Source: Boletus sp. NGJ
Taxonomy: Eukaryota; Basidiomycota; Agaricomycetes; Boletales; Boletaceae
NCBI GenBank assembly: GCA_019096195.1
Contig: JAGTXK010000110.1
Location: forward strand, 1-64,000
Length of the DNA: 64,000 bases
Reading direction: 5' to 3'
In this document: one piece after another, positions 4,802 through 34,103 of the stretch
Layout of the letters: every line of letters begins with the position of its first letter
Numbering within the stretch: the first letter of the stretch is position 1
The notes under the pieces: model-generated
Told to the model about the DNA's origin: nothing
What the model saw: the letters and a program-made list of their open reading frames with translations, nothing else
The model's database searches: none
Made by a program: the position numbers and the translations under genes

Positions 4802-4842
4802 ATCATCAGTAAATATAGGATTTCATCATAGTGCTCATAGTG
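4802..4842 (+). repeat. left terminal inverted repeat of the KDZ element
   Basis: ATCATCAGTAAATATAGGAT followed shortly by CATAGTGCTCATAGTG (4,827-4,842). The outer block matches the inverted right end in about 18 of 21 positions and the 16-mer matches perfectly. Confidence 0.65.
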
Positions 4843-4964
4843 CTATAGTAGTTTCATAGATAACTCATAGTATTCATAGTATATTCATAGTGTTCATAGT
4901 ATCATAGTATCATAGTACCATAGCATTCATAGTACATCCATAGTAGTCATAGTCATTGTAGTAA
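4827..4964 (+). repeat. CATAGT-type subterminal array, left arm
   Basis: Irregular tandem copies of CATAGT with 1-6 bp spacers (CATAGTATTCATAGTATA and similar). The same array, inverted, lies at 33,838-34,049 near the right end, so this is a paired feature of the element rather than a chance microsatellite. Confidence 0.8.
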
Positions 4965-4998
4965 TTTTAAGCTAAATCTAAATCTAAACCTAAATTAA

Positions 4999-5270
4999 AA
5001 GTATACAAAAAGTGTAGTCAAAGGTGTAGTCAAATGTTGTACAAAAAGTGTAGGAAAGAGTGTAATACAGTGTAGCAAAAATGCGCACCAAATGTAGCAA
5101 AAGTGTAGCAAACAAAGTGTAGTAAAAAAAAGCAAACAAAAGTGTAGTAAAAAAAAGCAAACAAAAGTGTAGCAGAGTGTAGTACAGTGTAGCAAACAAA
5201 GTGTACCAAAAGTATACCAAAAGTGTAGTAAAAGTGTAGTCACAAAGTGTACCAAAAGTGTAGACCTACA
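4999..5270 (+). repeat. minisatellite of GTGTAG(T/C)-(A)n units
   Basis: About 270 bp of irregular repeats built on AAAAGTGTAGTA and AAAAGTGTACCA. Long open frames on the minus strand here (runs of Tyr-Thr-Leu-Phe) only reflect the repeat and are not genes. No counterpart is seen in the right arm. Confidence 0.8.
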
Positions 5271-5456
5271 CTCAAAAAATATCCAAGTCCATTTTCCCAC
5301 ACTCAGTGTTAAAAAAGCGAACATTGTTTGCCAATGTTTGTGCCACCATTCTTATATAAACAAGCCAGACTTCAAAAATTTTCCCACACTCTCTTATTTC
5401 TTAATTTTATCCTTCTCTACTCATTACATGAAGTCAACACTTTACTTTGTAAATCA

Positions 5457-5502
5457 TTAGGATTGGGATTGGGATTGGGATTGGAACTGGGACTGGGATT
5501 AG
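5457..5502 (+). repeat. ATTGGG hexamer array, left arm
   Basis: About seven copies of a hexamer, mainly ATTGGG with GGATTA and ACTGGG variants. The right arm has the related GGATTA/GAATTA array at 33,706-33,826. These are not telomere repeats of the TTAGGG type. Confidence 0.75.
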
Positions 5503-5536
5503 GCACCCTTGGCAGCACTTTTTTTGAACTCTGAGC

Positions 5537-5583
5537 GTCTTACAGACCAATTTCCATGTACAAGGGAACTTGGTCTGTAAGAC
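5537..5583. repeat. perfect subterminal hairpin, left arm
   Basis: GTCTTACAGACCAA (5,537-5,550), a 19-base loop, then its exact complement TTGGTCTGTAAGAC (5,570-5,583). A related imperfect hairpin occurs inverted at 33,636-33,682, and both lie just inside a hexamer array and a GGCA.CACTTT motif. It is likely a transposase-binding or structural element (inference). Confidence 0.75.
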
Positions 5584-5639
5584 CATCCCTCTCAAAATTC
5601 AACTACCTAAATCCATTTCTAGCTCTTCCTAACACTAGG

Positions 5640-7037
5640 GAGCCTTCAACAACATGAACGAGTGGGGAATGTGATCCAAATGGAATACCCTGGTAGTTCT
5701 TTTGGACCATGTCTGTTGCTCGTCAGATGTCTTTTCTGATCTTCATTTCTGATGATTTCATCTTTTCAGCTCCTGCAGACCACATCCATTGCTCGCAAGA
5801 AGTCCCTGTCATTCTTTACTTCTGTTTTTTATTTTTATTTTCATACCATCTCCTGCTTCTCTTCTCTCGATGACAATAACAATGACAACAATGACAATGC
5901 AGTTTTTATGTGTGGGTCAACAACAACAACAGTGGGCCTACCAATGGCGACAATGACAGCATCCATGACATGATTGCACATGCCCCAAGATAACGACGAG
6001 CCCACAGATTTACTCTCACATCCCTGACCAAGGCAATGATGAAGCTGTTGTCATGCACTCCCATAAGTCCAGACTAAGTACACTAACCAGGAATCACATA
6101 TGTTCATGATGGTGCCATCAGTGACAATGCCATCATGCATGCCACAACATACTCCTGTGACTGTATCAGAGAGCAGCAAATCATTTGTTTTTGAGCCAGT
6201 TGCTTCTTGAGATTCAGATTTACATAAGAAGTAGATAATGTCCTTGGAGCTGTGGTAAGGACATTCTTACACTCTCAAGCTTTCCCTCCCATCCTTTGCT
6301 GTTGGCATTGTGATGTCTCACATACCACTACCTGATGTTTTGCAGCTTGCCTCATGTCTCACCCCTACCATCAAATCTGTGATGCTACACCAATCCATTC
6401 AAGTTACATTGACTGTTCAGCATCCATTGCTCACCAACATGTTCAACGCTATCTCACCAATACTGTAACTCATTGAACTGGTGTCACAATCCTGCTATGT
6501 ACAGCTCGCTAGTATACTTGTCAGATTTATGATTACCTTTCGATCACTTGGAACATTCGCTGGCAAGAGGTACTTCAAGATCAATGCCAGACCCATCACA
6601 TTTGACACATTCAATGTTGTGAGATGAGTCCAGTTCACTATAAATGCAGTGTTCATCAAGAACGAGATAAAGTGGAATAAGATCAATCAACACATTCACA
6701 TCTCCACATTGGAAGATGCCTCATGAGACAGTGCACAACATGGATAGTAGACAGTGGCACTTGTCTGACCATCTACAATAGATGGTCTGTGACAGGATTC
6801 ATGCAAGATACAGCTATGCTTGACAAAACCATGCAGGCACTCCGGTTTGCCACTCATCTTTGGCAGCCATTTGGTGCACTCTTGTTTCAGCTGCTCTTAC
6901 ATGTAGAATATAAGCAAATTATCATGGACAGTTTGATTACATTTCAAATTTGCAATAAGTTTCAATTGACTGATTTAATAGACAATATCTACAATCAAAG
7001 ATCAGTGACATTCAATTTTACATGGGTATGTGAATAA
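5640..7037 (+). pseudogene. KDZ cargo: broken plus-strand gene of unknown family
   Basis: I do not recognise the family. Protein-like sequence is clear in the 3' half. About 6,500-6,722 reads RFMITFRSLGTFAGKRY and ITFDTFNVV, with one in-frame stop near 6,626. A second frame from 6,723 to the stop at 7,037 contains IVDSGTCLTIYNRW, FATHLWQPFGALLFQLL and a tail VTFNFTWVCE. The frame changes at about 6,720, so at least one stop and one frameshift are present. Upstream (about 5,870-6,250) only Asp/Asn-rich and Ser/Thr-rich snatches remain, with more stops. It converges on the minus-strand orphan gene ending at 7,084. No 2-oxoglutarate dioxygenase (Tet/JBP) HxD motif was found, although KDZ elements in fungi can carry such genes. 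Confidence 0.5.
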
Positions 7038-7083
7038 ATGAATGTCCAAGAGAAGGGATCAATCTCACTGTTGAAGGCCAGGC

Positions 7084-10000
7084 TCAATCCAAACACACAA
7101 GATGGTTCAGGCAGTAGAAGGACCAGGCTCCACAGAGAATTGTTGCACCTGCGCAGCTTCCATTGATGGGTTGTGATTTACAGGAAGAGATCTCCCAGGA
7201 TCTGACAGCATGTTGGAATAGATCCTGGTTATTCGAATACATTGTGAAGTTCCTCATACCTGCAAGCATCTGAGGATGGTATCTGGCATACATGGCTCGA
7301 GGATCCCCTTGGAAGAACTCATGATGTGGGAAGTATGGAGCTTGGGAGGGGAAGGCATAGCTACCACCCATCTGACTTGGGGTGGCACCAGAATGCATAG
7401 GTGGCAGAGGAGGGGCAGTATTTTGGGGGGCACCTAGAATTGGAATTGGGGGAGGAAGGGGCAGGGTGATATTCACAGGAAGACCAGGAAGCATGGAAGA
7501 AGGTGGAACCAAGGGGGCCCTTGAAAGTGGGCAAGGTGAAGCAGTGTTCAAGGGCACACCAGGGAGCATGGTCTAAGGAGCCATACTGTCAGAAGGGGGG
7601 ACTGGGGACACAGCCAGAGGGACACTGTCAGACAAGACTTTGATGCTTGATGTAGAGGAGGATCCTAGGTGTGTTGATGGAGGGGGCACATTTTCTGAGT
7701 GAGATGGTGACTCTTCCTTGGAGCGCTCAAACAATGTCAGAAGTGGGGCATGTCACATAGGGGATGGTGAAGCTGGCTCCAAATGGAAACCCTCAGTGGC
7801 ACTTAAATGCCAAGCAGTGAGAGGCAGCATCACTACTTGTTGGTCAGTAGCAAAGGGCCTGACAAATGGATCATCCTGAGCTGCTGTAGAATGGGGAGAG
7901 CTTGGAATCACCAGAGTAGGAATAGGCTTCTTTGACACAGGGATCTATTTGGGTGTTGGCCTTCCATTTCATAGATGGCTCTGCACCCTTGCTGGATGGT
8001 CTGTCATTGTCATCACTTGAGTCATCATCAATTTCAATGTACTTCAATGTCGCATTCCCTTTCCAGACTGGCACTGCCACCTTTTTGATAGGGATCCCAA
8101 ACTTGGTCTTCTTGATATGTCGAACAGCAGGAGGGGAGGAACCATTGTCATCACTGCTGCTGCTGCTAATAATGATGATATCATTGGATGTCAACTTTGC
8201 CATGGAAATGAGCCCTTTGCACTTGATATGAGTAGCTGCACCATTCAATGAGAGATGAGCCGGGCCTTCAAAGTCTATAGCACCATTGGTGTACATTTGC
8301 TGTGCCCTTGCTTTGTTGCTGTCTGCACAAGGAGCTGCACTGATAATGACTGGGTGTTGGAATTCCTGAATAGCTTCTATAAATCACATTTGATCACTGA
8401 GGGGTTTCTAGATACAGATGAGACACATACTTCACACTGCCTGATTGTCTACTTGCACAATCATGATCTTATTATTATGCAAGCAATCACGGAGCTCACG
8501 CTGCTTCTGGACATTCAGAATGGTGATTCCTTTGGCTCTGGCACTGTTGGATTGCAACTCCCCAGACATCAACACTGAGCACGGCCACCCTTGTATCATG
8601 AGATTCTGACTGGCTAGCACATTCACAAGAGTAGCCCAAGGGAAATTGTTACATCTAACTTTCAACACATCTCCATCAGCAGACCCTGTAAAATTTCGTT
8701 AGGTCGTTAGAGATGACTGAGGGACAAAACTTACTGATCAAATCTATAATGGTATCTTTAATATAATTCAATACATCATCACCTGGTGCTAAAGACTCAG
8801 GAGCATTCTCTGTGATCTCAGGAGCTGTGGTTGTTGCCCACATGTATTTGGGTGCCTCAAGATTCAGGGCCGCCCCCATCATCTCTTTTGAGTCTTTTGG
8901 CGCCTCATATTTCATAGATAGCTTTTCTTTATCCTCTTTCTCCCCTTCTTCATCAAAGGCAGTGCTTACAATCTCCAATGAAGTGGTATTACTATGGTCA
9001 TTAGCGGAGGTATACATTAGCAGTATTGAATTACTTACTATATGTGTGCTTTTAGATGACCAATCATGGTATCATCATCAGCACAGCAGCAATCCTTGAA
9101 AAACTATAATCATCAAGGTCAGATAAGGAGGGGACAGGCATTAAACATGACCACTTACCTGTTTTGCACCCACTATTGTGTGAGTGAACCTCAATGACAC
9201 ATCCTTGTTGACAGTCTTGCCACACATCACAATTGCTGCTTCAAACCTGTGTTTTGCAGCAGCAGCCTCAAGCTAAAAGAAATGTCAGTTAGACCACAGC
9301 ATAGCCAAACAAAGTGAACTTACAAGAGACATCAACCTCCTCCACAATTTATTGAATGTTTGTAAATGTTGTGCAACTGTCAGCTGGCCAGAGTTGGCAA
9401 GCTCTATCATGTCATGGATTTCTAAAATTTCCTGCCATGCCTCTGGATTGTCATCCTTGAACTGAGTATAGAGCTGACTGCGCAGCGTTGGGGTAACTAG
9501 GGCAAATGATAGTTAGTGAAGAGTTGAAAGAAATATGGTGGACTTACTTGGGGTTTCAATAGAGAGACCTAAGCGCCAACATTCTTATGCCTCATTCTTG
9601 TTGAGACATTGAGCATACAGGTTTCAGTGGTTCATACCATTGATCACTTGTTCATGACTTTTGTGCCACCCATCCATAATCTGCTGCACAGAAAGGGATG
9701 TCTCGCCAATGATCTTCATAAGTAACTCCTCCAGCTGGTCATATTCTTCAGTGAGAGTGGTATTGATATGGGCACTGCATTAGCCTGCACTAGGTGTGGA
9801 TGGCTCATTGTCATTGACCCTGGAAGGTAAACTGAGATCAGCTCCTTGATCTTCTTTAGAAAGGCACAAAGCCATCATGAAAGGAGTTGGAGGGGTAGTG
9901 TGGGTGTGCAGGACATGGGGCTAAGCACAGGGTGGTGGCCCTTCATTGTCCAATGAAGCCCGAGTGTGTGGGATATAAGGCTGAGTGCTGGATGGTATCT

Positions 10001-10829
10001 GGGTCACAGGGGGGCAGGGAACTCTGAGATGGTGACAATGATTATTGCAACAGAATCAGATTAATGTTGGTGTCAGTAATCTCTGTGGAGGGAGTGAGTT
10101 GCAGTTCAGCTAATGGGGCTGATGGGAAGATGGCCATGTCTGCCACCAGAGAGATGGATGGGGGGGGGGGGGGGGTGGTTTTGACAAAGCCAAAGAAGCT
10201 GGAGATCGAGATCAAAGGGGTGGGAGGAGCAGTTCCAATGAAGTTGTGGCAACACTCAAAGGCTCAGCCAGCAGTACAGGATATTGGTCAGCCATGTGAG
10301 CTCTGCGTTTTTTGGCATCATGAGCCACTTGCATAGCCTACAGAGTGGGCTTGATGTGAGATTGTAGTTGAGTGGGGGATGTAACAGGTGGCACATGAAG
10401 GAGGGCCCCTCTACCACTGAGTTGAGGTGACATTGTGGGGGACCTATGTGTTCTGCAGCCTGTAGCTAGCATGATGGTTAAAATGACATAGTGTAAAAGT
10501 TATGAATACTTATTAAGGGGTGCTTTTGTGTTGGTTTGAGGGGGCGATATAGGTGTCTTCAATAGACCCTGTGTCCTGCACACCATGGTTGCTAATGGAG
10601 GCAAGTAATCAGGTCTGCTGCTGGTGAGATTCAAAATAGAAAGCCCACAAGTGGCAGGGCTGAAGGGACAGAGATCAATGCAGAGTCCTCCAGTAGTTCC
10701 GTTAAGCCGCCTTAAGAGTTCTGTGAGACTATGAAAGCCACTCACCTCACAGATGAATGTCAACAATGCAAATTGCCAGTGACAACAGAAAAATACCACC
10801 AACATTGTGCTTCGCTCCATAAAAATCAT
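7084..10829 (-). pseudogene. KDZ cargo: multi-exon minus-strand orphan gene, degenerate
   Basis: A spliced gene whose core is easy to follow. Predicted exons 9,496-9,324, 9,272-9,159, 9,103-9,039, 8,991-8,735 and 8,685-about 8,430 are separated by GT-AG introns of 51, 55, 47 and 49 bp whose phases agree. Landmarks are FEAAIVMCGKTVN, then DDTMIGHLKAHIYN across an exon junction, then LEAPKYMW, then KGITILNVQKQREL. The 5' part (about 10.8-9.6 kb) is Pro/Ser-rich with stops. The 3' part has an acidic Ser-rich stretch (about 8,296-7,871) and a Pro/Met-rich tail (7,569-7,084). At least one nonsense codon lies just before a probable intron near 8,430, and others lie in the tails. From memory it resembles uncharacterised Agaricomycete proteins; no function is known to me. 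It could encode a DNA-binding or capsid-like accessory, but nothing in the sequence proves that. Confidence 0.6.
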
Positions 10830-11312
10830 TAGTTAGATCCAAGGCATAGAGAAAAAAATTCACCTATTTTAACCATAGAGATTGAGGGTTTACACCAGAA
10901 ATGAGTACTCTGGATCTAAAGGGAGAAAAAAAACTTACTGTTTTGACTACAAGACTGAGGGTTTGCAACCAGCAATGAAGAGAGAAGGTGGTGAGAAGTG
11001 GTGCTATATTATTCCTTGCTCTATTATTAAAGTCTAATGTTACAAGCATAGCAGTGCTGAGGAGGAACTGGCAGAGCAATGTTGCCGCTCAGTGGATATA
11101 CCTACAATTCCGAGCATATGGCGCTGCGATGGTGGTGGCACTAGTGGGAAGGATGTGTGGTGTCAAAGTGGCGCTCACATGACTAAGCATATATTCCGCT
11201 TCAAAATAATCTAATCTGTACTCATTCAGGCTAGACAACAAATCATTCCAAGAAGTAGCTCATTGGCAGATACAACACAGATATATAAAAACTATGATGC
11301 AAATCTATGACA

Positions 11313-12169
11313 CTAAATCCAGCTTGCCACCCCACAATCAACCATCTCCATCATTAATGCAATCCCTTCATCAAGTGAATCCACTTTCGAGAAGACTGCA
11401 TTGGACACCTCACTGACATAGAGTGCAGTACATTGCCTGCCCAGAACAGTCAGCATATGTCATAAATCTGAATACCATATATTTTACTCACCATTTGGTG
11501 AAGACCCCAACATAACGGCCACACATAATGAGGTATAACTGTCCACTGGCAGATGAAGAGGGAACATCAAAAATAAAGTTGTTGTACTTGTGCTGCATAT
11601 GGCCATTGAGGCTTATACCACCAGCTACAAATAAATGATGAGGCCTTGTGGGATCAATAGCTATGACTGTGTGATCAACTCCCCCCACATTTGGTTCTGT
11701 TGCAGGATCTGCAGTCATTCTATCAGTCATATGAAAAATCAGTGATGGGAAACATATTTTGCATGGCATTGTCCACATTGATGTGGGTGATCTCCATGTT
11801 GACATTGGCAGTGATAGGAGGTAGCGTGTCTACAGATGGGTCAGTCGAGTCAGACAGACTTGTGATGCATGACACAGATGTCGAAGGTGGCATGCTGGGT
11901 GACCCAGGGTGCAAGTCCTCAGAAGCTGGAGACTCTGTGGTGGGTTTGAGAGGCTCTTGGTTGGACATTCTTGCAGCAAGCTCAGATACAGCCTGAGTAC
12001 AAAGCAACAAGTGGAACAGCGTGTTGTTAAGAAGCTCTGCAACAATAGTGAGTTCAACGAGAGTATTGACAGATCCATTGAACAAACCTAGATTGGTCTT
12101 CATGGTGGTGACTTTGTCAACAGAAATGGGGGGAGGAGGTTGGGTCTTCAGTAGTGTATCCTGTGGCAC
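11313..12169 (-). pseudogene. KDZ cargo: protein with viroplasmin/RNase H1 N-terminal-like domain
   Basis: Two exons, 12,169-11,492 and 11,436-11,313, joined by a 55-bp GT-AG intron (donor GTGAGT). The N-terminal half is low-complexity, Pro/Ser/Thr-rich and acidic. The C-terminal domain reads LYLIMCGRYVGVFTKW, spliced to QCTALYVSEVSNAVFSKV and DSLDEGIALM. This is the hallmark layout of the small fold shared by caulimovirus viroplasmin and the RNase H1 N terminus (Tyr-x-V/I-x-x-Gly-x-x-x-Gly-V-F/Y-x-x-W, then V-x-x-x-x-x-x-F-x-S-x-x-E-A), which binds RNA-DNA hybrid or dsRNA in RNase H1. No catalytic RNase H domain follows. The frame changes once near 11,740, which suggests a single frameshift, so the copy may be dead. 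The 5' end is uncertain: an acceptor-like TTATAG lies just upstream of the chosen Met, so further exons may have lain toward 12.4 kb, where element A interrupts the locus. Confidence 0.6.
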
Positions 12170-12289
12170 TATAAGTATTGGTTAATAACAGATACAATGA
12201 AATTGCAAAACTTCACAAGGGCACCACCTGGAAATGTAAAAGCTGCAGCAACAATCTGAGAATGGAAATCAACATACTATATGAGTGTG

Positions 12290-12395
12290 CACTGACTGAG
12301 GAGTTCACCAAGGTGCATGCAAGTCATGTGGCCAAGATGGAATGGTACAGCGATCTCATCATGGACAAATTGTGGTGCATGTTCATCATCCCTCA
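12290..12395. repeat. KDZ segment resembling 19,757-19,935 (imperfect duplicate flank)
   Basis: About 100 bp immediately left of Gypsy A, with an imperfect second version immediately right of it. Shared blocks include GAGTTCAC.AAGGTG, GGCCA.ATGG and GTGCATGTTCA. The right version has about 45 bp extra. Both read as broken protein-like sequence on either strand. The duplication is independent of the 5-bp target site CCTCA (12,391-12,395 and 19,757-19,761). Confidence 0.5.
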
Positions 12396-12860
12396 TGTTA
12401 TAATATATGAAAATTTCGAACTTCTTTATCACAACACTTATTTTTCCATTTCATCAATCTTTTTCTTTCAAAAGTCACATGACTGTGCATATGATCATGG
12501 GAACATATCACATGATTAGGTCTAGAACCTGTAACATCATACCTCATGTGACCCATGATCCTTTAATTTCCACTCTTCTATCACAGCCTCTTTAATCTCC
12601 ATCTTACCATACATAGTAAATTATCACACACACTGCTTGGTCTGTGCACATTCTTTGTACATATATAAAGTAGCTCTCTGACAACTGGAATTCCCAGTCT
12701 AATCCATTTGTATTCTGCTATCAACTCATTGCCTGGACTATATTGTTCTTGTAGGGTTGGCATAGTATGGACAATGACTCCCCACCTTATTCGTTAAGCC
12801 AGGACACGTGTAGTCTGCAAGGGTCAAGCCTTGTGGTGTGTTTCGAAAGGATTCATAACA
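12396..12860 (+). repeat. 5' LTR of Gypsy A
   Basis: 465 bp, TGTTATAATATATG...TTCATAACA. Ends were set by alignment with the 3' copy and by the flanking CCTCA duplication. Confidence 0.93.
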
Positions 12861-13948
12861 CTTGGATTAGACTTCATACACAACACTCAGACTCCAGAGC
12901 TAAGGAGACATATGCGGGCCCAGCATTAAGAGACATCTCAAGGTTTCACCACTTGATGGTGACAAGTAAAGTACTCAGGGAAATATGCTTGTCTGGCATC
13001 ATAAATATGGATAAAGTTGCTGCTGGGCATAGTGCACTAGCCCCCTTTCTTGAGTGGGTGCCGATTCAAGCATATGCTGGTTCTATAATAGTGAATCCAG
13101 GTTCATGTGATTACCTGTGACGTCACACAGTTGTGATCAGGAGATTTATCTCGCCTTTCTCCCATGTAACATCTGTCAGTAGTATGACAGTTATACTCTG
13201 GTTCCCCCTGCACAATTGCCCATCATTTTCAATAACCTATACTTCAACTCCTTCATAGGAACCCCAGAACCTAATTGTAAGATATCAGGTAGTAAGGTTC
13301 TAAAAGAAAACTGACCAAGGAAGATCTATACGGCAAACCCCGATAAATAAAGACCTCTCTACCCTTCATCAGCTTTCACCCTCTACCACATCGCAATTCA
13401 CTGCTCCTACCTATACCCCTTCTCTCTCTTAAAACCCATAATCAAATATGCCTCGAGTGGATGTAGACAACCTCGTAAAAAGACTCACTGACCTCATGCA
13501 GGAGCGAGACAAAGAAAATGTCACCAACAAGATTGCTGATCCCAGTAAATGGGATGGCAACCACTCCAGCTTCTGTGTTTGGTAGATAAAACTGCATCTC
13601 TGGGTCAATGCACAAACATGGAAAAGTAACAAGATTCTAAATATCACAGTCCTATTTCAACTCGAAGGAAAGGCAGAGGGCTTTGCCCAACTCATGATGA
13701 AATACTACCTCAATGAGGAAGCAACCATCGAGACGGATGCACAAGACAACATGTTGCCAGCTAAGGGAGATGACACTTGGCCAACATGGAAGAGAATGCA
13801 GGAGCAGATCTGCCCTCATTTCTGCATCGATACACTCTCCCATGAGTCTCTTGAGAAATTAGAGGCTCTAAGGCAAAACAGACACCCTGTAGATCAGTTC
13901 TTACAAAAGTTTGAGATTCTATGCAAGGAGGCACACATTGATGACCAC

Positions 13949-19935: not shown

Positions 19936-20911
19936 TGTTACGCCAGGTAACAATGTGACATGTTCCCATATAACCCCTGTTGGATTATAGGACTAGCAGG
20001 ACTTGAGGGAATACTCAACCTCCAGAGGCCCAACGGTTTCCTCTGACTGGGGACCAACTGCTAGCTTTACATAGAGTCCTCTCGTTACCTCTACGACCGA
20101 TGGCGGAGTCTTGGATTTACCACAGAATCCCAATCCTATAAGAAGGGTGGGCAGACCAGTGCGCAGGCCAAGGAGCAGTAGCCTTCTGTCTGCTGATTCC
20201 TTGGGCTTACTGGGCCTAAGATCAGTGGCGGAGTCCCGGGCTTGCTGGGTCAGTGGCAGAGTCCTGACCGACAACAACCAACCTCTGTTGGTTGTTTGTG
20301 TTGCCAAAGCCTTAGTAGCTGGTAACGGCAATGACGGCACACAAGTGCGAGGTGATGAGAAGGATTATCACAAGCACGAGGGTGAGCACCTCCAGATCGT
20401 GGGAGAAGGCTTCTGAGGTGAAGTGGAACCTTTAGCAGGAGAAGCAGTAGATTACACGGGAAGAAGTGTAGATCTAGGTTAGTGTTACATGAAGGGCCCG
20501 CATCCCTATTTATAGGCCCTACCCATCTAGGGCAGGCTTCGTAATGAATATAGTAATGTTTAGTCGCAGACAAAAGATTACTATAAACGGATCAAAGCAT
20601 GAGTCAAATGGGGGAAGTAGGAATACTGGGCTATGCGCGAGAGAGCATAGCCAAGGAGGCAATGTCTATGATCGGGTCAAAAGGAAGAGAGCATGTATCA
20701 GGTGAAATAGGAAGGCGGTGTCCATACCAAACGGGTAGGTTGCTAAAAGGGAAGTTATGAATAACTTCCTAGAAAGGTAGTCCCGGATGGGGCGATGCCT
20801 GGGTCGGTGTCGCGGGGGAATCCCTGGTCAGAGTTGAAGAATAGGTCGTCCCATAGTCCTACAGGGGGAGAAGGAAGGGGAAAAGATGTACCCCCTTCGG
20901 TAACCATAACA
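19936..20911 (-). repeat. 3' LTR of Gypsy B
   Basis: 976 bp. Reads TGTTACGCCAGG...CCATAACA on the plus strand. It lacks a 28-bp unit present in the other LTR and in the solo LTR, apparently one copy of an internal direct repeat built on GGCGGAGTCC. Confidence 0.92.
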
Positions 20912-20919
20912 TTACCCTC

Positions 20920-22009: not shown

Positions 22010-25000
22010 CTACCAGGCGTGATGATAGGGGCAGTATTCGATCTTGCAGAAGCACCAGTGTTGTTTGATATGTTTAGGGATGTCTAGGTCTGGATACTGC
22101 TTCTGAAGATGGGCTTGGGTGAGGGCAGCGGATACTCGAGTGAGTAGAATGAAGAGGGAGGTGTTGTCTTGGGGCATGGGTTCGTCTCAAAGACTGAACC
22201 GCTTTTTAAATTCCAAGAGGATTTTCTTGGCATTTCCAAGATTGGTCTCGGGTTCCCAAGTTTGTTCAGCTGCAGAGTATCCCTTCCAGTGCATCAGGTA
22301 CTGCCTTTTTCCCGGTTTTTCCCGATGGTTGATGATGCTATCCACTTCGTATTCCTCATTGGTTCTGACAAGTTCCGGTGGTGGTTGAGTGAAATTGGGG
22401 CCGTGTTCCGTTGTTTCCCGATACGGGGAAAGTAGGGATGCATGGAATACGTCGTGGATTTTCCACTGTTTTGGTAACTTGAGTCAGAACGCCACGGAGG
22501 ACACCACTTGAGTGATTTCAAATGGTCCAGTTCGTTTTGGTGAGAGTTTTCGGGAGGGGACTTGGAGTTTTAGGTTTTTGGCGTCCAGCCAAACCTTATC
22601 TCCGATTTTCCAGGGTTTGAAGCGAGAGTGAACTCTCTTCTTCATTCATAGTTGTGCCAGTTGGTGTGCCGCTTCTGCTTCCTTTCTTGATTCTTCTAGG
22701 GAAGTGAGTCTTTCTTCCAAGGCAGGTAAGAAGGTTTTTCCGATAGAAGGATATGCTCTGGGTTCATATCCAAGGATTAGCAAGAAGGGCGATTTTCCGG
22801 TGACTGAATGGGTTGCGGAGTTATGAGCAAACTCCGCCATTGGTAGTAGTTCCAACCACTTCTGTGGTTGGCCGTCGCAGAATATACGTAGGTAGGTTTC
22901 TAGTTCTTGGTTATATCGTTCCGTTTCGCCATCGGTTTGTGGATGGTAGGCTGTGGAAAGGGCGACATTGTAGTTCAGGAGTCTGGCCAATTCCTGAGCG
23001 AATGCTGATGTGAATTGCGGACCACGATCTGAAACCAATTTGTCATGTAAACCGTACCGTAGGAAGACCTTTTCGAAGAAAAGACAGGCTATACCAGCCG
23101 CGTCCACCGTTTTTGTGCAAGGGGCGAGAATTACCCCCTTACTAAGCCCATGGTCGACCACGACCATGACTGAATCGAAACCCCCCACTGGGGGTAGGTC
23201 GGTGATCAAATCCACTGATAAATTCTGGAAAGGGCGACGTCCTTGGAAGGCTAGGAGGGTGACCGGGGGAACCGTAGGGTGTGTCTGGACCTTATTACTC
23301 TGACAGATGGCGCAGCCGGCGACATATTTGCAAATGAATATGGTAAGTCCTGGCCACCAGTAGTCTTTGGCAAGGAGTTGAGTGGTGCGGAGGTGTCCGC
23401 CATGTCCACCCTTGAATGAGGAATGGACGGAGGAAACCAACTCCTGTCTTGCTGGGCTGGGGATGTACATTTGATTTTTGTAGTAGAGGTTGCCATTGTC
23501 AAAGGTTCAATCTTCCACATTGGACCGGGTGAAGAGAGGTTCTCCTTGTCCGACACATTTCAAGGCGGAGAGTACTAAGGGATCTTTCTGGGCGGATCCT
23601 CTGATCTTCTCGGCCAAGGCTAAGTCGATCATCCGTACTTGATGGTCGAATGCATTAGATGGGAGGAGTTGTACATCTTTGTTGTCCTTGGAAGTATCAA
23701 CTTCATCTCGTTGAGATAAACCATCTGCTGGGGCCATTTTTGTTCCTGGTAGGGCTTGGTAAACCATATCATAATCCTGGAGGAACAAAAGCCAGCGTGC
23801 TTGTCGTTGGGAAAGTTGTCGAGGTTCTTTGAAGAACATCAGGTTCTTGTGGTTGGTTAACACTGTTACGGGGTGGGGGGATCCAAGGAGGTATTGTCGC
23901 CATTCCTTCAGTCCACGTATGACAGCCAGTAGTTCCCTGTCATAGATGTCGTAGTTTCTCTCCACCGGAGAGAACGTCTCTGAGAGATAGCCACACGGTT
24001 GCATATCTCCGTTGTCATTGTTTTGCATGAGTACCGCTCCTGATGCCGTAAGCGAGGCGTCGGTCATGAGGGTGAAGGGCTTTGAAGTATCCGGGAAGGC
24101 GAGGACGGGTTTCTTAGTAAAAGCCGCTTGTAGGGTTCTGAACGATTTTTCCTGAAGTGGTCCCCAAGACCAAGTTGTCGTTTGCTTTGTGAGGTCCAGC
24201 AAAGGATGTGCTATGTTGGAAAAGGAGGGGATAAACTTCCTATAGAAGTTGCAGAATCCTATGAAAGACCATACGTCCTTCACGTTTACCGGAGGTTTCC
24301 ACTGTTTGATGGCATTGAGTTGAACGGGGTCCATCTGGACTCCGTCCTTTCCTATGATCATCCCAAGATATTCGACCTCTTCGGCTGAGAAGGTACATTT
24401 CTCCAATTTGAGGTACATTTCGTGTTGTCGGAAGCGTTCTAGGACCTTCCGTGTCCTGTCATCATGGGTTTCCTGATCTGAAGAATGAATCAACAGATTG
24501 TCCATGTATATCACCAACCATCCCTCCACGATGTAATCTCCAAAGAGATCGTCCATAAACGCTTGGAACGTTGCTGGGGAATTGCACATTCCAAAGAACA
24601 TGACATTTGGCTCGAATAGCCCAAATGGAGTGAGGAAAGCCGCCTTCCACCGATCTTCTGGTTTGATCAAGACATTGTTATAGCCCCATCATACGTCAAA
24701 TTTGGTAAAGATTGACGATCCCTTTAATTTGTCTAGGAGGTTGGAAATTAAGGGGAGGGGGTAGGCGTTCTTGATCGTGTGGCTGTTAAGGTATTGGTAG
24801 TCTTGGCAGGGGCGGAGTTTCCCATCCTTCTTCTGTACAAAGAAGAAGGGAGCAGCTTGGGGAGATTTTGATGGAGATATCTTCCCAGTTTTGAGGTGTT
24901 CGGCAATGAATTCCCTGGCATGCCTGTTGTTCCAGTGGGTTGAGAGGGTATGCCTTGGCTCGTTTCGGCACAAACGAGTCTTTTAACTCGATGGCGTGGT

Positions 25001-27255
25001 CGTATTGTCTGGAGGGAGGTAGTTTGGTGATCGTCTTCTCCGTGAAGACGTCTTCGTATTCCTTGAACGCGTTCGGTAACGCGCTCTTCTTCTTCTGCGC
25101 CTGTTGGGCGATCTCGGTGGACAGAGTGGTCCGTTTTGATGACAAACTCTGGCACATCCCCATGCGCGTTGAAGAAACCTGGCCCGTTGCAAGGGCGTCC
25201 AGTGGCGAAAGGTCTCGTAGAGTCCGTCTTGCACGTACTCCCTTTCGTCATGTTCCAGATACCTCAGTAGGTATCGCTGTTCGAGTGTTCCCGGTGGATC
25301 ACCTTGAGTCCACCGATAGGAAGACGGCACTATGGTTACCCGTCCTTCCGTCCAGTTGATGTCAGGGTTCACTGCCCTGAGCCATGGAAGTCCTAGAATG
25401 ACTTCATCCTTGCCGCAATTGAGGACATAGAGATCCCGCTGTTCTCGTATGCCTCCGTAATCCAACACGATGTTGGTCCTTTCCTTGATGGTCCCAGACT
25501 GGTTTTGGGTTCCATCGACGTTCCAAGCTCGGACCGGATTGTCCAGCTTCCATGTGGGTAACCCCATCTTCTCCACCGCGTGTCTTGAGATGAAGCATCC
25601 TGTTGCTCCACTGTCGATTAAGGGCTTGTGTTCCAACGATTTTGCCATCCTGCTTCCAGATCGAGAGAGGAATACGAATAGAATTACTCTTCGATCCGGA
25701 AATGAATACAGGTGCAATCGTGTAGGAAGAGGGTGACGTTGGTACATCTCTTCCACCTAAAAAGACGTTTGATCTATGGGAGAAGGGGGGATTTGCGTAG
25801 CAGGGTCCTAGGGCAAGAGAGTTGACGTTCTCTTCCCATTCCTGTGCGGCAGCTTCGTGTACTCGTTCCAAAACGAGTCCCTTGCTCACCCAGTCCCCGT
25901 GTCGTAGACTGTCTGCAGCGTTCTGAGAACTGTGTCTCGTCCGTTATTTCTGGCGACTTCTGCGAGATACTTGTCGAGGGGATCCTGTGGCGTTTCTTGG
26001 GTGACGACCACCCTGGTGTGCATTTCCTGTGGTTTCCTATATTCCTCTCTCCTAACTGGCCAATATCCCGGGTGGTTTCTGGTGCTGCACCCCAGTTTTG
26101 TTGCAGATGAAGCATCTTCGCTCTCTCATCTGCTTGGCCCTTTCGATAGGAGATAGTGTGATCCTGTCCACGTCCATCGTGTTTGGATCATGGTAGCTTC
26201 CTCGGCCTTTTTCAAAGGACACAAAGGGTCCTTTCTGTATTCCTTCAATCCGTTGCCACGCCCCGTGGATATTAGCAGCGACTTCGTAGACTTCTTCCAT
26301 TTTCTTGGCTTTTTGGAAGGTCTTGCTGTTAACCATCTGTCAGGCAATTCTTGGATCAATCCCCCTAAGGAAGAATTTGAGGATGGAACGGAATTCCTGT
26401 AGTTCCGAGCAAACCACTAGCAGTGAGAACTGGGAGATGAATTTGTCAAATCCCTTTGGGTCCTTGGTGTTTTGTTGGAGGGTCCCTAGTTCTGCCATTG
26501 CTAGGTTGCTGGTGTTATGGGGGGTGAAGGTGAGGGCGAAGGCTTTCTTGATTTCGTTATAGGTTTTGTCTGCAAGCGGCACGGTATCGTCGAGCAGCCT
26601 GGTCAGCCAGGCTTCTGCAAATGCTTTTCCTCTTCCCTTGGACATCTGGTTCAGCAGGATGAGCCTCTTGGCTTCCTTGGTGAACTTCTCTGTGCCTCCT
26701 AGATGGAAGTATCCTTCCATAGCCATGAGCCATCTTTTGGCATCGTGTGTCTCCCCTGAGAACTCCTCAGGCAGGGCAGCTTTAATTTCAATCATATTGT
26801 CTTTGTCGTCTGTGTCTTCTTCGGGCTGGGGATTTCCTGGATCAGGACTAGATCTTCCGCTTGGGAACAGTGGGTCGGGTGAGTCTACTTGGATAGGAAC
26901 CGGTTGGAACGCTGGCAGTGGGATAGGAGCGTCTAATGGGGTCACAGTTCGAGAGTGGAGACCACCTGGAAAATCTGGTCATCTGGGTTGTTCTGGAAAT
27001 GCGCGGGCGGGAGGGTCGTTGTAATGGGACGATGACCCTGGGATCCTTCTTGATGAAGACGTATCGGAGATAGGAGTAGAAGCCCGTGATGGTGTGGCTT
27101 CTTCTTCTCGATCTTCTCCTAGGAGATGGGAAAGGTCGATTCTGCGCAGTGCGTAGAGCCAGGGCCTATCCTCTGATAGGCGGTTTTAATTCCTTGGAAT
27201 GATGATGGGAGTTGCTAGACTGGATAGTCTTCAGCAATTTATAACCTAGATCTTT

Positions 27256-28259
27256 TGTTACGCCGGGTAACAATGTGACACGTTCCCATATAACCCCTGT
27301 TGGATTATAGGACTAGCAGGACTTGAGGGAATACTCAACCTCCAGAGGCCCAACGGTTTCCTCTGACTAGGGACCAACTGCTAGCTTTACATAGAGTCCT
27401 CTCATTACCTCTACGACCGATGGCAGAGTCTCAGATTTACCACGGAATCCCAATCCTATAAGAAGGGTGGGCAGACCAGTGCGCAGGCCAAGGAGCAGTA
27501 GCCTTCTGTCTGCTGATTCCTTGGGCTTACTGGGCCTAAGATCAGTGGCGGAGTCCCGATGTACGAGTGCTGGTGGCGGAGTCCCGGGCTTGCTGGGTCA
27601 GTGGCGGAGTCCTGACCGACAACAACCAACCTCTGTTGGTTGTTTGTGTTGCCAAAGCTTTAGAAGCTGGTAATGGCAGCAACGGCACACAAGTGCGAAG
27701 TGAAAAGAAGGATGATCATGAGCACGAGGGCGAGCACCTCCAGATCGCGGAAGAAGGCTTCTGAGGTGAAGTGGAACCTTTAGCAGGAGAAGCAGTAGAT
27801 TACACGGGAAGAAGTGTAGATCTAGGTTAGTGTTACATGAAGGGCCCGCATCCCTATTTATAGGCCCTACCCATCTAGGGCAGGCTTCATAATGAATATA
27901 GTAATGTTTAGTCGCAGACAAAAGATTACTATAAACGGATCAAAGCATGAGTCAAATGGGGAAAGTAGGAATACTGGGCTATGCGCGAGAGAGCATAGCC
28001 AAGGAGGCAATGTCTATGATCGGGTCAAAAGGAAGAGAGCATGTATCAGGTGAAATAGGAAGGCGGTGTCCATACCAAACGGGTAGGTTGCTAAAAGGGA
28101 AGTTATGAATAACTTCCTAGAAAGGTAGTCCCGGATGGGGCGATGCCTGGGTCGGTGTCGCGGGGGAATCCCTGGTCAGAGTTGAAGAATAGGTCGTCCC
28201 ATAGTCCTACAGGGGGAGAAGGAAGGGGAAAAGATGTACCCCCTTCGGTAACCATAACA
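27256..28259 (-). repeat. 5' LTR of Gypsy B
   Basis: 1,004 bp. Reads TGTTACGCCGGG...CCATAACA on the plus strand. It contains the full set of internal GGCGGAGTCC-type repeats. Confidence 0.92.
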
Positions 28260-29150
28260 TTACCCTCAGGCATATCATATAATGGTGGTGGATAGGCCTG
28301 AAGATGGCCGATGGTTCTATGTGAGAAAGACCTGACCAGTGCCATAAATAATCAGCTGTACTACATCCCAGAGGATCTTGTGTCTTTCAGTCCATGAGCT
28401 GAAAGGTAGTTCCCACTCATATCCAACTCCAAGCCACTAATTACACATCGCAGATAACCTTGAACATATGTCACAATGTCCAGATTTCTCTCACCCCTTC
28501 AACCTTCATACATGCCAGCTGGCATGGACAGTAAACCGCTTCTATGCACAATGCAAATGGTATTGGGACACTGTTGCAGAATGTTATGAATTCTACAACA
28601 TGCTCATTGTCACTTTCAATGCAAAGTGGCCAGTGAGGGGGGAAGTATTCCCTCACATCCCGCTTGATGTTCTGCTAGATGAGTTACAATGGCAGGCAGT
28701 GGTGAAGAAACAGATTGAACTACAAATGGTGAGTCTCCTCTGAGCCTCTGCATGTCTTGAACATAATTTACGATTATATCTTAGTACTTGCTCTACCTCC
28801 ACAGCTGAATCTCTTATGGCTGTTGCAACTTTGACATCAACTTTTTCAACTCAGATAATGTGATGGCCCAGGAATCAGTGGAAGTGTGAATTGATTGTAT
28901 ACCATACTTCTTGTCGAGTCATCCACTGTGTTCATGCCCTGGTGTAATAAAATCTGATTTTGATTACAAGACTAATCAGCGAGAATCACTTGTACACAAG
29001 AATGTAAGTAATAGCAGAAATCAGGAATATCAGACTCCGTTATCCCCATACCCTCATATCCTTAAAGTAGTGCCATCACACTTGCCAATACCCATATACC
29101 ACAATTGTATCCATTCATTTGCAAAGAGTTAGTCTTTGGAGTGATTATTA
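28260..29150 (+). other. KDZ segment right of Gypsy B, with a plus-strand coding remnant at 28,468-28,743
   Basis: An open frame of 91 codons (28,468-28,743) looks protein-like: FNLHTCQLAWTVNRFYAQ, then YEFYNMLIVTFNAKWP and VLLDELQWQAVVKKQIELQM. I do not recognise the family. It lies downstream of the transposase and on the opposite strand, and its upstream part is probably separated from it by insertions A and B. The rest of the interval shows only stop-rich sequence. Confidence 0.4.
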
Positions 29151-32100
29151 GCTTAATCAGACTATAAAGGTGAGCCACACACAGTAAGTGGGCATGCAGT
29201 CCAAGGGTGTAAATCTAGCACAAGCCTGGGGTGATTTGTCTTTGCAGTGTTCAATAGTCGTGTGATGAACATCATGATGTCCTGAAATTAAGTGACTTGG
29301 AGCACCTTCAAGCGAAATATGATAGAGAATATACCTCAATGTCTGTTCACCATGGTTTGCATTCAGCAAAACTATTAAAAAGGTACAGTTCTTGGAAGGA
29401 TAAGTTGGCAATATATAAATCCCAATGTCCCAGAGATGGTCAGAATATTGGAATGATCCATGTATTTTTTGTTCAAAAATGTGTGTGCTGAGTGACCCTC
29501 CAGAGATGGGCATTATTGTCATGATGAACATGCAGTAAGTCATATGTCAAAAATATAGCATAGGGATAATCTTTGAACATGTCAATGATTGCAAAGAGCA
29601 GTGTGATACAACCATTGATGCAGGATGTCGGAGTGGTGAGCATAGATATGTCTTTATGACTAAATCTAATTCTCCATAGTCCATACTTCACGAAATCCAA
29701 TTGGTTTGTCACAGAGTCTTGAGTTGATATGAGAGTGGGGACAGAAGTCAGATCTATGGTGATATTCTGTGCCATTCATGTCAGTGGCCACAACTGTGTG
29801 GGGCATTGGCAGGAATGGGGCTTACAGTTGGCATGTCCCACATAATTTCAACACTTATAACAGGTAATTTGTCAGCTCCGTCATTGATGGTGAATGGTTC
29901 TGCAGTGAACATGGGTAGTTCATTGGCCCTGTCATCATCAGCAAATGGATTCACCACCAATTGGGCCATCAATCTTGTCATCATCATTGTGTGACTGCTA
30001 CATTAGGAAATCAAGGAGAATGGTGTCCTCTGTGTTAAGAGTCACAGTGTTGTCTGCAATGCGTTCTTCAGAAGGGGCTTCTGCTGTTGTTGTATTGACT
30101 CAAAGGAGAGATGTCTCAGGAACACCATCAGATAATTGAATAGCCAATGTAACAGCTCTGTTGACATAAGCATCAAGCCAGGACTTTGACATCAATGAGC
30201 TTGACCATCAAGATGGCAGAGTCAGAAGCTGCTTATGGCAAAGTTGAAGAGCAAGGCAGAACATTTCGTCTATAGAAAAGTCATTAGTAGATCACCAATC
30301 AGCAATGTGCCACATACTTCCTGGGGTGTGAAGGGCAAGTTCAACCGTGGCTATCTCATTACAAAACCACCAACAAATGTTATCAACTTTCATACCTAAT
30401 TGGTGCTGTTCTTTGAAACACTGGTTGTGTTTGTGCATGGCCTGAATGCCTGCACGAACATCCTTGTCATCTAGTCAGCGTAGAATTTGTCCAATTGAAG
30501 GTGCAATCCAAATATCTTCCATCAGTGACTAATCATTTCAAAGGTCATTCAATTTGGTGGAGAGAGGACCAGGGAGCGGAATAGACCAGGATTGATTGTA
30601 CAGTTCCTTGAGCTACTTACAATAGTTATTAAACTTGTGGATCGCACTCATCAATGCAGGCTGGCACTTAGCAATTGCCTTTCACATTTGCTGGTGAAGC
30701 TTGGTGCCTGGAACAAATGAAAGAAGAACAGTGATTCAATGAAACTACTAACCAAGCACTTCCTGTGCCCCTCTGATAGCTTGATCCAGTTTGTCCCATT
30801 CAAAAAAACTACCTATTGCCTGTTTGCAAATATTGATTTTCAAGTCATGTGCCAAGAGGAGTGTCCAGACAAATTCCAAGGGAATATCCTTCAGCTCAGG
30901 AAATTTGTCGCTTACATTGAGGGATGAATAGAGTATGTTCACCTTGGTCATTAAGTGGTCATGTGTATGCTCCAAACTCCCTAAGGCTTCCTATGTTATT
31001 TTGGATATATCATACTTCTCAATCTCAGCCTTTGCAGACTGAATGGCATGGTCAGCAGTGTCAATGTTAGCTTGAAGCGCTAACACAGTGTCGAGTTCTT
31101 TCTTGAGGCGTGCAGGAGCATCTAAGATTTGATTTATATTTAGCATGTATTGATCTAGTCAGGGGACATATGAGCATGAACAGATAGTTGTGACTCTCTT
31201 TGGGAAGCCTATTCCCTTTGTGGTTCATTGATTGACACATCGCATTGTTCAATGCTTTCCTGAGCTACTTTGCCTTGTTCCTGTACCCCACAATGAAGGC
31301 AACACTTGATCCAATCACCAAGATCCATCCACATCTTGTTGCCAACTGCAGACGCTTGTTGATCAATTAGCCAAATGTGGCACTGATGCTTTGAGAGGCC
31401 AGTAAATATAATTGCAATCAAAATTAACAAAGGCTTACTGAGGAGGAGCACTCAATTTCAATGAGCTTGATCATGCATGACCACAACCATTCAGTACCCT
31501 CTTTGTCAGACAAGCCAAGACTGACAGATAGGCAGGGATTGAAGGCAAGTTGACATGCCCATTCATGACTGTAAGCATGCATAGCTGTGGTGGAGAAGCA
31601 AATGCGACCCAGAACATCCTCAGGAAGAATGTCATACTTATCAAATCATATTATATTACATGTTTAATGGAGTAGGTAAGTACCCACCAAAGAAAGTGTC
31701 CTGTCCAAATCGCAACCCATGTCATACAGGATTACTACAGTGGCACTAGGTGGCAGCAAGAAGAAAAGATATGCAATGAGAGCGAGGGCATACATTTGTT
31801 GTTCGCCAGGGGTGTCAATGTTGGCGAAGAACAACAGGATGTTGTGGTGGCAGATCAGTGCCATGAGCTCCATGTCATTGAAGCTTTCCATAGACATCTT
31901 CTGCTTCTTTCCATTCATGGCTTTGTAGGATGCTTCACATGAGTCTATGGCTTTGTTAGGAACAGCTGTTGCACGTCGAAGCAGGAGCAGTTTCTTCCAT
32001 TGTTGTGCAATATGGGAACCCATGGCATCGACATCTTTCTTAGGAAGGAGATGGACTGGTTCATAGAATGAAGGAGAATCACCAGCAGAGTGGTGATGGT

Positions 32101-33370
32101 AGTGATGGAAGTTGCCATCCATGGCCACATGGATGTCACCCCCATCAGTAATGTTCCTGCCAAATGTGGAACCACCAAAACAAGCCAGGCAGTGTTGGAC
32201 GAGGATTTGGGCACAACTACCAGCAATTAAGGGTGACTGATTGAAAACTATGCAGCCTGGAGTAGTGGCAGAAGAGGTAACATGTACAGGTGTCGTGAAT
32301 AATTGTTTCTGTGGTGTCACAAAGGTCATGGGTTGAAAGGTGCTGGGTACACTGGCTTCTGGAAGTTTCAACAACTTAATGCGATCTCAGCATGCTTGGA
32401 GTGAGTCTTCTATCTGATGCTCCACATCTATGTGGAGGATGTCATACCATTGCGTGGCAAATCCCAGACTATGCTAGAAAGGCTCCTGGATGGCCTCCCT
32501 CTGCAATGAAGTCAGATAGTAGCAGTAATCAGATTAACTTACATGTGCATCTTTATTTACCATCCAAAATCCTTGCTAAATGTAATGCATGTGTAATGCT
32601 GCTGCAAGCATGTTGATTGCATTACACGACCACTCAAACAGCACCTGATAAAATGCTAAGAGGTCAACGAAAACGGCCATATGAGGCTGGGAAGAAGGAG
32701 TAGGGCAAAGGCCAAAGTGCACTAGAATTTGGGGAGTCATCGAGCAATCACAGGCCACAACCTCAATGGTGATGAAATCTAAACCCAATTAGACATAATT
32801 AAGATGACATGATGGAAAACTTATGGTCAAAGAACAGACACATGATATGAGTAGGCTTGTGAGAACACTGGACATGATTGCAAAGAGAGATGGATTGGGA
32901 CAGGGGATGAAGGGGCTTGCCCAGCATTCAAGATGCGTAGTGCAAATATGGCTGAGTTAATGTCAGAATGAGACGCTTCCAGTTCTGACATAAGTGGTCT
33001 GCAGTGAGGTCTGGATGGATGTAGTGTGTAGAAGTTTGGTGATGGGGGAAATGATCAGGCTGAGCTATGTCTATGTCCATTTGAGGCTGAAGTTCTTTGA
33101 TTGGAACATTCTAAGGGGTGAAATCAAAGCCAGAGGGAATGTGGATGTCATTGTGGTTTTCACCTTGCTGGCAAGGTGCTTGAAGCTTTTCAAGCCAGGC
33201 AGCTAAGCGGCAACAGTGAGCAGATTGACCAGCAATCTTGATGAGCTTCTGAGTCTTGCTCTTGTCACAGGGTCATAGGGAACTCTGAAAATGTTTGCCG
33301 AGTCCCTTGGAAACCAACTGAGCATGACATGTTTGAGGGCCTCAGAGAGGCATGGATTTAGATGTGAGTT
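29151..33370 (-). pseudogene. KDZ transposase with CxC1 cysteine cluster and C-terminal Ulp1-like protease domain, degenerate
   Basis: The transposase of the DNA transposon, on the minus strand. (1) CxC1-type N-terminal cluster, about 33,100-32,590: PYLHYAS, C..V.CSHKPTHIMCLFFDH, then VACDCSMTPQILVHFGLCPT and QPHMAVFVDLLAFYQVLFEW. (2) KDZ core, about 32,250-31,210: CLACFGGSTFGRN, GGDIHVAMDGNFHHYHHHSA, FANIDTPGEQQMYALAL, VVILYDMGC (catalytic Asp), then after a short intron AMHAYSHEWACQL and KEGTEWLWS (catalytic Glu), then HIWLIDQQASAV and LGDWI. (3) Helical tail, about 30,975-30,300: LLLAHDLKINICKQAIGSFF. (4) Ulp1/C48-like region, about 29,775-29,160: LISTQDSVTN, TSCINGCITLLF, DIMMFITRLL. More than ten in-frame stops and frame changes lie between these blocks (for example in FDFTP*NVP and LHYAS*MLG), so the gene is dead although the core DDE-type residues survive. 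Confidence 0.88.
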
Positions 33371-33635
33371 GAAACAAAAAGTGAAAAAAGAAGGGAAAAA
33401 AGAAAATAAATAAGGGAGGACTGGCAAGCAGAAAATGGAGCGACAAGATATGGAAGTTCCATTGATCATCCATTGCTCATGCAATGACCAAAAGAGGCCA
33501 AGAGGATGTCGCACATCAAGTTTGTGTGATGACCTGAAGAGGTTGAGGGGATGTTGCACACTAGATTCGTGGCTCCAATGAGGCCCAAATGAGGTGCACT
33601 GCATATTCAACATAGCGAGGCACTCAAGATGCCCC

Positions 33636-33682
33636 ATCTAAGAGACATATTTTTACCTACAAAGAAAATTAGTCTCTAAGAC
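33636..33682. repeat. imperfect subterminal hairpin, right arm of KDZ
   Basis: ATCTAAGAGAC (33,636-33,646) pairs with GTCTCTAAGAC (33,672-33,682) with two mismatches. Read on the minus strand it aligns with the perfect left-arm hairpin at 5,537-5,583, including the preceding GGCA.CACTTT block. Confidence 0.65.
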
Positions 33683-33705
33683 CCCATAAAGTGTTGCCTG
33701 AGGTG

Positions 33706-33826
33706 GGATTAGGATTAGGATTAGGATTAGAATTAGAATTAGAATTAGAATTAGTAGAATTAATATTTGATTGAATTTGAAATTAGAATTGGCTTGAAAT
33801 TGCATTAGAATTAGAATGAGAATTAG
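33706..33826 (+). repeat. GGATTA/GAATTA hexamer array, right arm
   Basis: Three to four GGATTA copies pass into GAATTA copies and then into a looser AATTAGAATT-rich stretch. It is the counterpart of the left-arm array at 5,457-5,502. Confidence 0.75.
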
Positions 33827-33837
33827 AATTGCTAAGT

Positions 33838-34049
33838 CACTATGGAAGCACTATGTATACTATGGCATCACTATGACCACACTATGAGACACTATGGAAA
33901 TACTATGACCACTATGAAAGTACTATGAGAATACTATGAGACACTGAGAATACTATGACAGACTATGGCCACACTATGAACAGACTATGAGACACTGTCA
34001 TAGTACTATCAAACCACTATCCAGTTGGACCCTCACTATGAGCACTATG
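33838..34049 (-). repeat. CATAGT-type subterminal array, right arm (as CACTATG)
   Basis: About 210 bp of irregular CACTATGA/ACTATGG units, the inverted equivalent of 4,827-4,964. Confidence 0.8.
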
Positions 34050-34103
34050 TTACTGTCCAGTACTGGACAGCACTGGACAGTTAGTCCTGTTTTTACTGAT
34101 GAT
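34034..34103 (-). repeat. right terminal inverted repeat of KDZ, with an 18-bp palindrome
   Basis: CACTATGAGCACTATG (34,034-34,049) and, outermost, AGTCCTGTTTTTACTGATGAT (ending 34,103) mirror the left end. Between them is the perfect palindrome CTGTCCAGTACTGGACAG (34,053-34,070), followed by another CTGGACAG. The palindrome is absent from the left end. Confidence 0.65.

Follow-up and report, generated by a model that had tools for sequence, protein, structure and literature searches.

KDZ elements are DNA transposons with a published size range of 9.2 to over 30 kb. In the available parts of the literature, those of Cryptococcus neoformans measure 9.2–11 kb with duplications of 4–8 bp, KDZ1 (about 11 kb) having an 8-bp duplication and KDZ2 and KDZ3 duplications of 4–8 bp (PMC12810828), and those of brown algae reach 30 kb or more (PMC12477816). 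Target-site duplications (TSDs) are given as 8 bp for Zisupton and 7 bp for Kyakuja in the accessible text of Kojima 2025 (PMC12730594), in which PlavakaB transposons are described as having CATCA..TGATG ends and duplications of 2–3 bp. Both the KDZ and the PlavakaB type are met in the window considered here, the whole stretch of 64,000 nucleotides that was analysed (positions 1 to 64,000 of contig JAGTXK010000110.1 of Boletus sp. NGJ, hereafter C95:1-64000), within a searched genome of 32.8 Mb and 141 contigs. A first-pass annotation had described positions 4802 to 34103 as one large KDZ transposon ending in two inverted arms. It is very probable that this interval instead holds a decayed, old TET-less KDZ element with two linked accessory genes, which is nested in a PlavakaB-type miniature inverted-repeat transposable element (MITE) and has since received Gypsy insertions. 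There is good support for the nesting, and the order of the layers, the two sets of ends and the linkage of the genes in relatives can be read directly. That two arms have features in common does not necessarily make them the ends of the intervening DNA; when an insertion cuts an older repeat with inverted ends in two, the resulting 'arms' are easily misread as element ends. As the MITE supplies an empty site, the borders of the KDZ element become readable. Genome searches scored the best candidates only, so that counts are those of the matches listed, and relatives of the element were read in part, not end to end.

The arms carry inverted CATCAGTAAA ends at 4804(+) and 34101(-); the plus-strand terminus reads CATCAGTAAATATAGG at 4804, the minus-strand terminus CATCAGTAAAAACAGG with its end at 34101. 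A CATAGT array and a hexamer array are present in each arm. The left half (4804..5503, +) is of PlavakaB type and consists of the CATCAGTAAA end and the CATAGT, AGTGTAG and ATTGGG arrays; the right half lies at 33706..34101 (+), and an AT duplication flanks the pair at 4802..4803 and 34102..34103. Joined together, the arms form a non-autonomous repeat of about 1.09 kb that is uninterrupted elsewhere in the genome. Right-type ends with at most three mismatches number 155 genome-wide against 1 in the reversed control, and the combined pattern of end and CATAGT array has at least 160 matches, some ends being counted twice, against 0 in the control. The right arm adjoins the left, with a gap of about 50 bp or less, in eight of the ten relatives having a left arm (L002, L003, L005, L006, L008, L040, L041 and, on C38, L042); L040 and L041 have a truncated left arm, and at C38 the arms are broken elsewhere by insertions. 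Moreover, a facing left end lies 991–1219 bp away for at least 25 of the 40 right-arm matches outside the window, from which six shorter pieces were excluded; left-end positions of the arm pattern are listed up to contig C82, and arm-pair counts are therefore lower bounds. Arms only 1.0–1.2 kb apart leave no room for a KDZ gene between them. Arm copies without a KDZ gene, which the first-pass annotation had itself named as evidence against a single unit, are thus present in at least 25 pairs.

Furthermore, the 2-bp flanks are identical in all five loci with both ends exact (AT/AT in the window, CT/CT in L002, AT/AT in L005, GA/GA in L006 and TT/TT at C38). The CATCA..TGATG termini and the 2-bp TSD, which falls within the range of 2–3 bp, fit PlavakaB and not KDZ. 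Compared with PlavakaB of Agaricomycetes in the available part of PMC12730594, the window copy has the same termini and a 2-bp TSD but is only about 1.09 kb long and without a Plavaka gene. The Plavaka domain PF18759 has at least 131 matches in the genome.

Two further sets of arm copies had been considered as candidates. The MITE copy at C38:118036-137602 (L042, L043), flanked by TT/TT and stretched to 19.6 kb by insertions at two places, had looked like another large element with such arms and was rejected as one; it is a MITE broken by a long terminal repeat (LTR) element and other insertions. Likewise, KDZ genes with a nearby right-type MITE end at C31 and C44 were rejected as support for a single unit, the MITEs being truncated in the AGTGTAG array (L040 8208-8829 on C31, L041 2814-3567 on C44) and situated in the 5' region of the KDZ copies. 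MITE arrays may be frequent insertion targets.

The KDZ element with its nested insertions occupies 5504..33705, a span of 28,202 bp with the genes on the minus strand, and sits exactly where MITE copies elsewhere are continuous. At the junction, ...CTGGGATTAGG is followed by CACCCTTGGCAGCACTTT on the left, and 28.2 kb further on AAAGTGTTGCCTGAGGTG is followed by GGATTAGGATTAGG. The CACC..GGTG terminal inverted repeats (TIRs), CACCCTTGGCAGCACTTT at 5504..5521 (+) and CACCTCAGGCAACACTTT at 33688..33705 (-), match at 14 of 18 positions in a register that was chosen after looking; a match of at least 14/18 was found in 1 of 200,000 random pairs of window positions. Additionally, the 120-base ends of the insert align at a score of 38, the maximum of 500 shuffles being 33. 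Subterminal hairpins lie at 5537..5584 on the left (GTCTTACAGACC..GGTCTGTAAGAC) and at 33637..33681 on the right, and a direct repeat, GGATTAGG, occupies 5496..5503 and 33706..33713. Of the four features that the arms had been said to share as parts of one element, the terminal repeat, the CATAGT array and the hexamer array belong to the MITE and only the hairpins to the KDZ element, whose ends at 5504/33705 do not coincide with the CATCAG arms at 4802/34103.

The termini of the insert are inverted in register, as in KDZ elements. The target is a hexamer array, and the repeat alone therefore fixes the duplication only modulo 6, to 2, 8 or 14 bp; it is provisionally taken as 8 bp at this one locus, the published KDZ value, and such a length argues against Kyakuja (7 bp). 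When Gypsy A (7,361 + 5 bp) and Gypsy B (8,324 bp) are subtracted, 12,512 bp remain. A net size of about 12.5 kb, in place of the 13.5 kb once considered large for a DNA transposon, is ordinary for KDZ. MITEs are very common in this genome and the region is full of transposons, which could suggest that the arms stem from two different MITE insertions and that the interval is a chance collage. This is exceedingly improbable, as the flanks agree (AT/AT), both arms break off at one and the same position of the MITE, and the insert combines paired TIRs and hairpins with a gene order also found in C23.

CACC ends are also found elsewhere in the genome. A scan of DNA from relatives located one at C44:508522, a 17/18 match to the window left end, which follows the last gene of a KDZ relative after about 2 kb and faces that relative as in the window. 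The genome-wide end pattern was then widened to admit the C44 end. Its five exact matches are the two window ends, C44 and two at C133; with one mismatch there are 11, including C31:195941 and C7:103649, and with two mismatches 125 in total against 27 in the reversed control, many of them being a stretch of the MITE array. The C31:195941 end, of the same type as the right TIR of the window, lies to that side of a KDZ relative on which a right end is expected, and the C7:103649 end faces a weak gene-3-like match at C7:98235. The left hairpin is nearly identical in the C133 ends and not evident in C44 and C7. No MITE arm was seen in the outer flanks of the C44, C31, C7 and C133 ends (1478, 109, 151, 99 and 103 bp).

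These ends bear on a reading close to the earlier one, in which the CATCAG arms are a KDZ transposon's own ends and the repeats of about 1.1 kb its internal-deletion derivatives. Deletion derivatives would likewise have contiguous halves, and in the window the arms are indeed inverted, with common array types and a matching 2-bp flank; yet from such a transposon one would expect neither another TIR, with hairpin and direct repeat, precisely at the point where the MITE is interrupted, nor, at C44, C31, C7 and C133, CACC ends lacking an arm in the outer flanks read, and the termini and 2-bp TSD of the arms are those of PlavakaB, not of KDZ. Above all, C44, a KDZ relative with a CACC end outside any MITE, speaks against taking the repeats of about 1.1 kb for mere deletion derivatives. 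This reading is very unlikely.

The other matches of the widened pattern are of less certain nature. The nine remaining one-mismatch matches (C1:170332, C50:258748, C52:2969, C52:44787, C63:61561, C65:158250, C75:221750, C117:71864 and C118:71914) are possibly ends of other copies or chance. The KDZ-type ends at C133:29969(+) and C133:78147(-) (L066, L067) are identical over the 160 bp compared and over 12 bp of outer flank. They are oppositely oriented and enclose the KDZ genes 43330+ and 61548- plus two Tet_JBP matches, an arrangement that is an inverted duplication or an assembly effect.

There are still several observations that weigh against a KDZ element nested in a MITE. The KDZ relatives are decayed. 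A second KDZ element complete with its two termini and a TSD was not recovered, and in the stretches read of C11, C23, C35 and C31:165001-184500 any end matches stayed below 15/18. The right end of the C44 copy was not found in 478501-480500 and 484001-489000, where the search gave only one-mismatch matches to AAAGCACC, its presumed duplication, and a CACC end came after none of them. A joint search for the TIR and a 7–8 bp TSD at C23 (left 27001-35100, right 44700-50000) gave 10/18 at best. The C31:195941 end lies about 13 kb from the KDZ gene, the gene-3-like match at C7:98235 is weak (24%, E 3e-5), and the outer flanks read at C31, C7 and C133 cover only 99–151 bp. Moreover, GGATTAGG lies in the hexamer array and the identity of the flanks is partly forced. 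With regard to the MITE, two of the ten left-arm loci (L004 and L007) have no right arm in the 1.5 kb beyond the match, and the KDZ copies of C31 and C44 likewise have MITEs reaching into their 5' region. No autonomous Plavaka with CATCAGTAAA ends was found in 10 Plavaka loci scanned, of which only L051 has a left MITE end, outside the gene.

The KDZ transposase reported between the two inverted arms, 4804(+)/34101(-), is present. Its multi-exon gene (29065..33110, -) has the KDZ domain PF18758 at 31457-32134 (-) and a C-terminal Ulp1-like motif, QMNGYNCGIW. The single open reading frame (ORF) 31667-32386 matches PF18758 at E 1.9e-22 and 80.5 bits against a cut-off of 26.6, and the concatenated ORFs at E 4.2e-34. 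Ulp1 is represented in the window by its motif, the window and C23 copies having QxNGxxC and no Peptidase_C48 (Ulp1) match, and a significant match (E 9e-5, above cut-off) was obtained solely in the C11 relative. Long matches to the window KDZ exon, 48–60% identical, are found at C31, C23, C35, C11 and C44, and shorter or weaker ones at C81, C109, C112, C74, C3, C103 and C59. The copies at C23, C44 and C11 are collinear with the window transposase through to the Ulp1-like end; the matches at C31 and C35 stop before the Ulp1 part, and these copies look truncated. Like KDZ1-3 of Cryptococcus neoformans in the available part of PMC12810828, the window element combines a KDZ transposase and inverted terminal repeats with an apparent 8-bp duplication and a similar net size. 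In contrast to them, it is decayed, its TIRs are 18 bp long, imperfect and accompanied by a hairpin instead of measuring 139–241 bp, its transposase has an Ulp1-like C-terminus, two accessory genes are present, and the N-terminal cysteine cluster CxC1 matches only at E 0.93, below cut-off.

Tet_JBP has at least 23 matches in the genome, 18 of them above the family cut-off and 15 within 5 kb of a KDZ gene. The contig of the window element has none of them, and neither have C31, C23, C11 and C35; the C44 match, at 718804, is about 210 kb from the KDZ relative, and TET-linked KDZ copies are absent among the 17 listed matches of the window KDZ exon. Judged from these matches, the window KDZ family is distinct from the KDZ elements that carry TET, and the absence of TET from it is real within the sensitivity of the search. 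TET+ Kyakuja of Agaricomycetes resemble the window element in having a KDZ transposase with cargo and CA..TG ends but differ, in the accessible text of PMC12730594, by a 7-bp TSD and the lack of a TIR, as well as by the TET/JBP for which the window family has no match. In the Tet_JBP/KDZ pairs read by eye, the two partners point toward one another at a distance of about 3 kb, an arrangement that TET+ Kyakuja elements might be expected to have.

Further genes between the arms, which had also been reported, were found at 8.4–12.2 kb. Gene 2 (11316..12181, -) is 'viroplasmin-like' by motif only (LYLIMCGRYVGVFTKW). The viroplasmin/RNase H1 N-terminal domain PF01693 gave no match at E 10 in the gene 2 proteins of the window and C11, and its genome search reported two other places, on C45 and C81, and not the window. 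A PDB search with gene 2 was set aside, as it returned only designed PPR proteins with single matching stretches below 3 bits. At E 0.001 or better, gene 2 occurs elsewhere at C11:5931-6131 (2.6e-12), C44:505953-506489 (6.6e-7) and C23:38181-38285 (1.9e-5), and every one of these sites shares its strand with a KDZ relative and lies downstream of it, at distances of about 5, 16 and 5 kb, respectively. Gene 3 (8435..9779, -) is an orphan with exons at about 9627-9779, 9288-9512, 9144-9272 and 8435-8698. Its second and first exons match C23:35187-35637 (9288-9512 and 9627-9779; E 6e-19 and 1e-14 among DNA of relatives), and 9144-9272 and 8435-8698 match C44:500806-501599 (E down to 2e-9). Exon 9627-9779 alone is common to C23 and C44, at E 0.002 in C44; as the two copies match mostly different exons, gene 3 may be more than one gene. 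ORFs of uncertain status at 7087..8383 (-) are possibly its 3' part; ORF 7868-8383 has no match besides the window itself, and ORFs 7087-7572 and 7874-8383 have no Pfam match. Of the gene set first proposed, the absence of a Tet/JBP match stands and the accessory genes are partly found in relatives, the viroplasmin assignment resting at the level of a motif. In the C23 KDZ copy, a non-LTR retrotransposon lies directly downstream of gene 3 (C23:33200-34700; L056, L062), identified by eye from a zinc-knuckle ORF1 and an endonuclease-like ORF.

Whether genes 2 and 3 belong to the KDZ element is a separate question. Pfam gave no significant match for either, gene 3 precedes gene 2 in C44, which differs in this from the window and C23, and the stretches read of C31 and C35 contain neither gene, as C11:1-17000 contains no gene 3 match; together with the different gene 3 exons matched in C23 and C44, this would suit bystanders or remains of other transposons lying inside the KDZ element. 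That explanation is nevertheless rather unlikely, given that all three other sites of gene 2 are downstream of KDZ relatives on the same strand, that parts of gene 3 stand beside KDZ at C23 and C44, that both genes lie inside the CACC left end at C44, and that the C31 and C35 copies appear to have lost the Ulp1 part as well. Accessory genes common to diverged KDZ copies offer a concrete lead on KDZ cargo besides TET/JBP. Only tentatively may one go further and propose a TET-less KDZ lineage with a conserved three-gene mobile unit (KDZ-Ulp1, an orphan protein and one bearing an RNase-H1-N/viroplasmin-like motif), whose accessory proteins would work in transposition or silencing evasion and not be passengers. 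The literature searched contained no paper joining KDZ or Zisupton with Ulp1, or KDZ with viroplasmin.

The nested arrangement very probably arose in three steps. As the oldest event, a non-autonomous PlavakaB-type element of about 1.09 kb inserted at 4802/34103 with a 2-bp duplication, presumably moved in trans by a Plavaka transposase. The CACC..GGTG KDZ element then entered the ATTGGG/ATTAGG array of the MITE by cut-and-paste, duplicating 8 bp (GGATTAGG) and bringing, on one strand and in order toward its left end, the KDZ transposase with its C-terminal Ulp1-like part, gene 2 and gene 3. The transposase would bind the TIR/hairpin ends, and the accessory proteins may assist or regulate transposition. 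The activity of the KDZ element, what its accessory genes do and the Plavaka partner of the MITE are inferred. Finally, Gypsy A, a solo LTR and Gypsy B inserted inside the KDZ element.

Gypsy A and Gypsy B, both noted earlier, were confirmed as two LTR elements inserted in the KDZ element. Gypsy A (12396..19756, +) has LTRs 95.3% identical and a 5-bp TSD, CCTCA. It contains a solo LTR of Gypsy B type (13949..14946, +; TSD ACCAC), inverted relative to Gypsy B. Gypsy B (19936..28259, -) has LTRs 94.7% identical, and no exact TSD was found for it. The giant KDZ elements that PMC12477816, in its available part, describes from Ectocarpus and cites from Chlamydomonas are similar, with sizes to 30 kb or more, nested foreign transposons and accessory genes; by comparison, nested Gypsy copies are known here from the window copy alone. 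Beyond the MITE, long direct repeats at 34151-34723 and 40832-41402 are 94% identical over the 300 bp compared and are probably the LTRs of a further element, starting 50 bp to the right of the MITE. DNA resembling this repeat pair is also present in C38 and C11.

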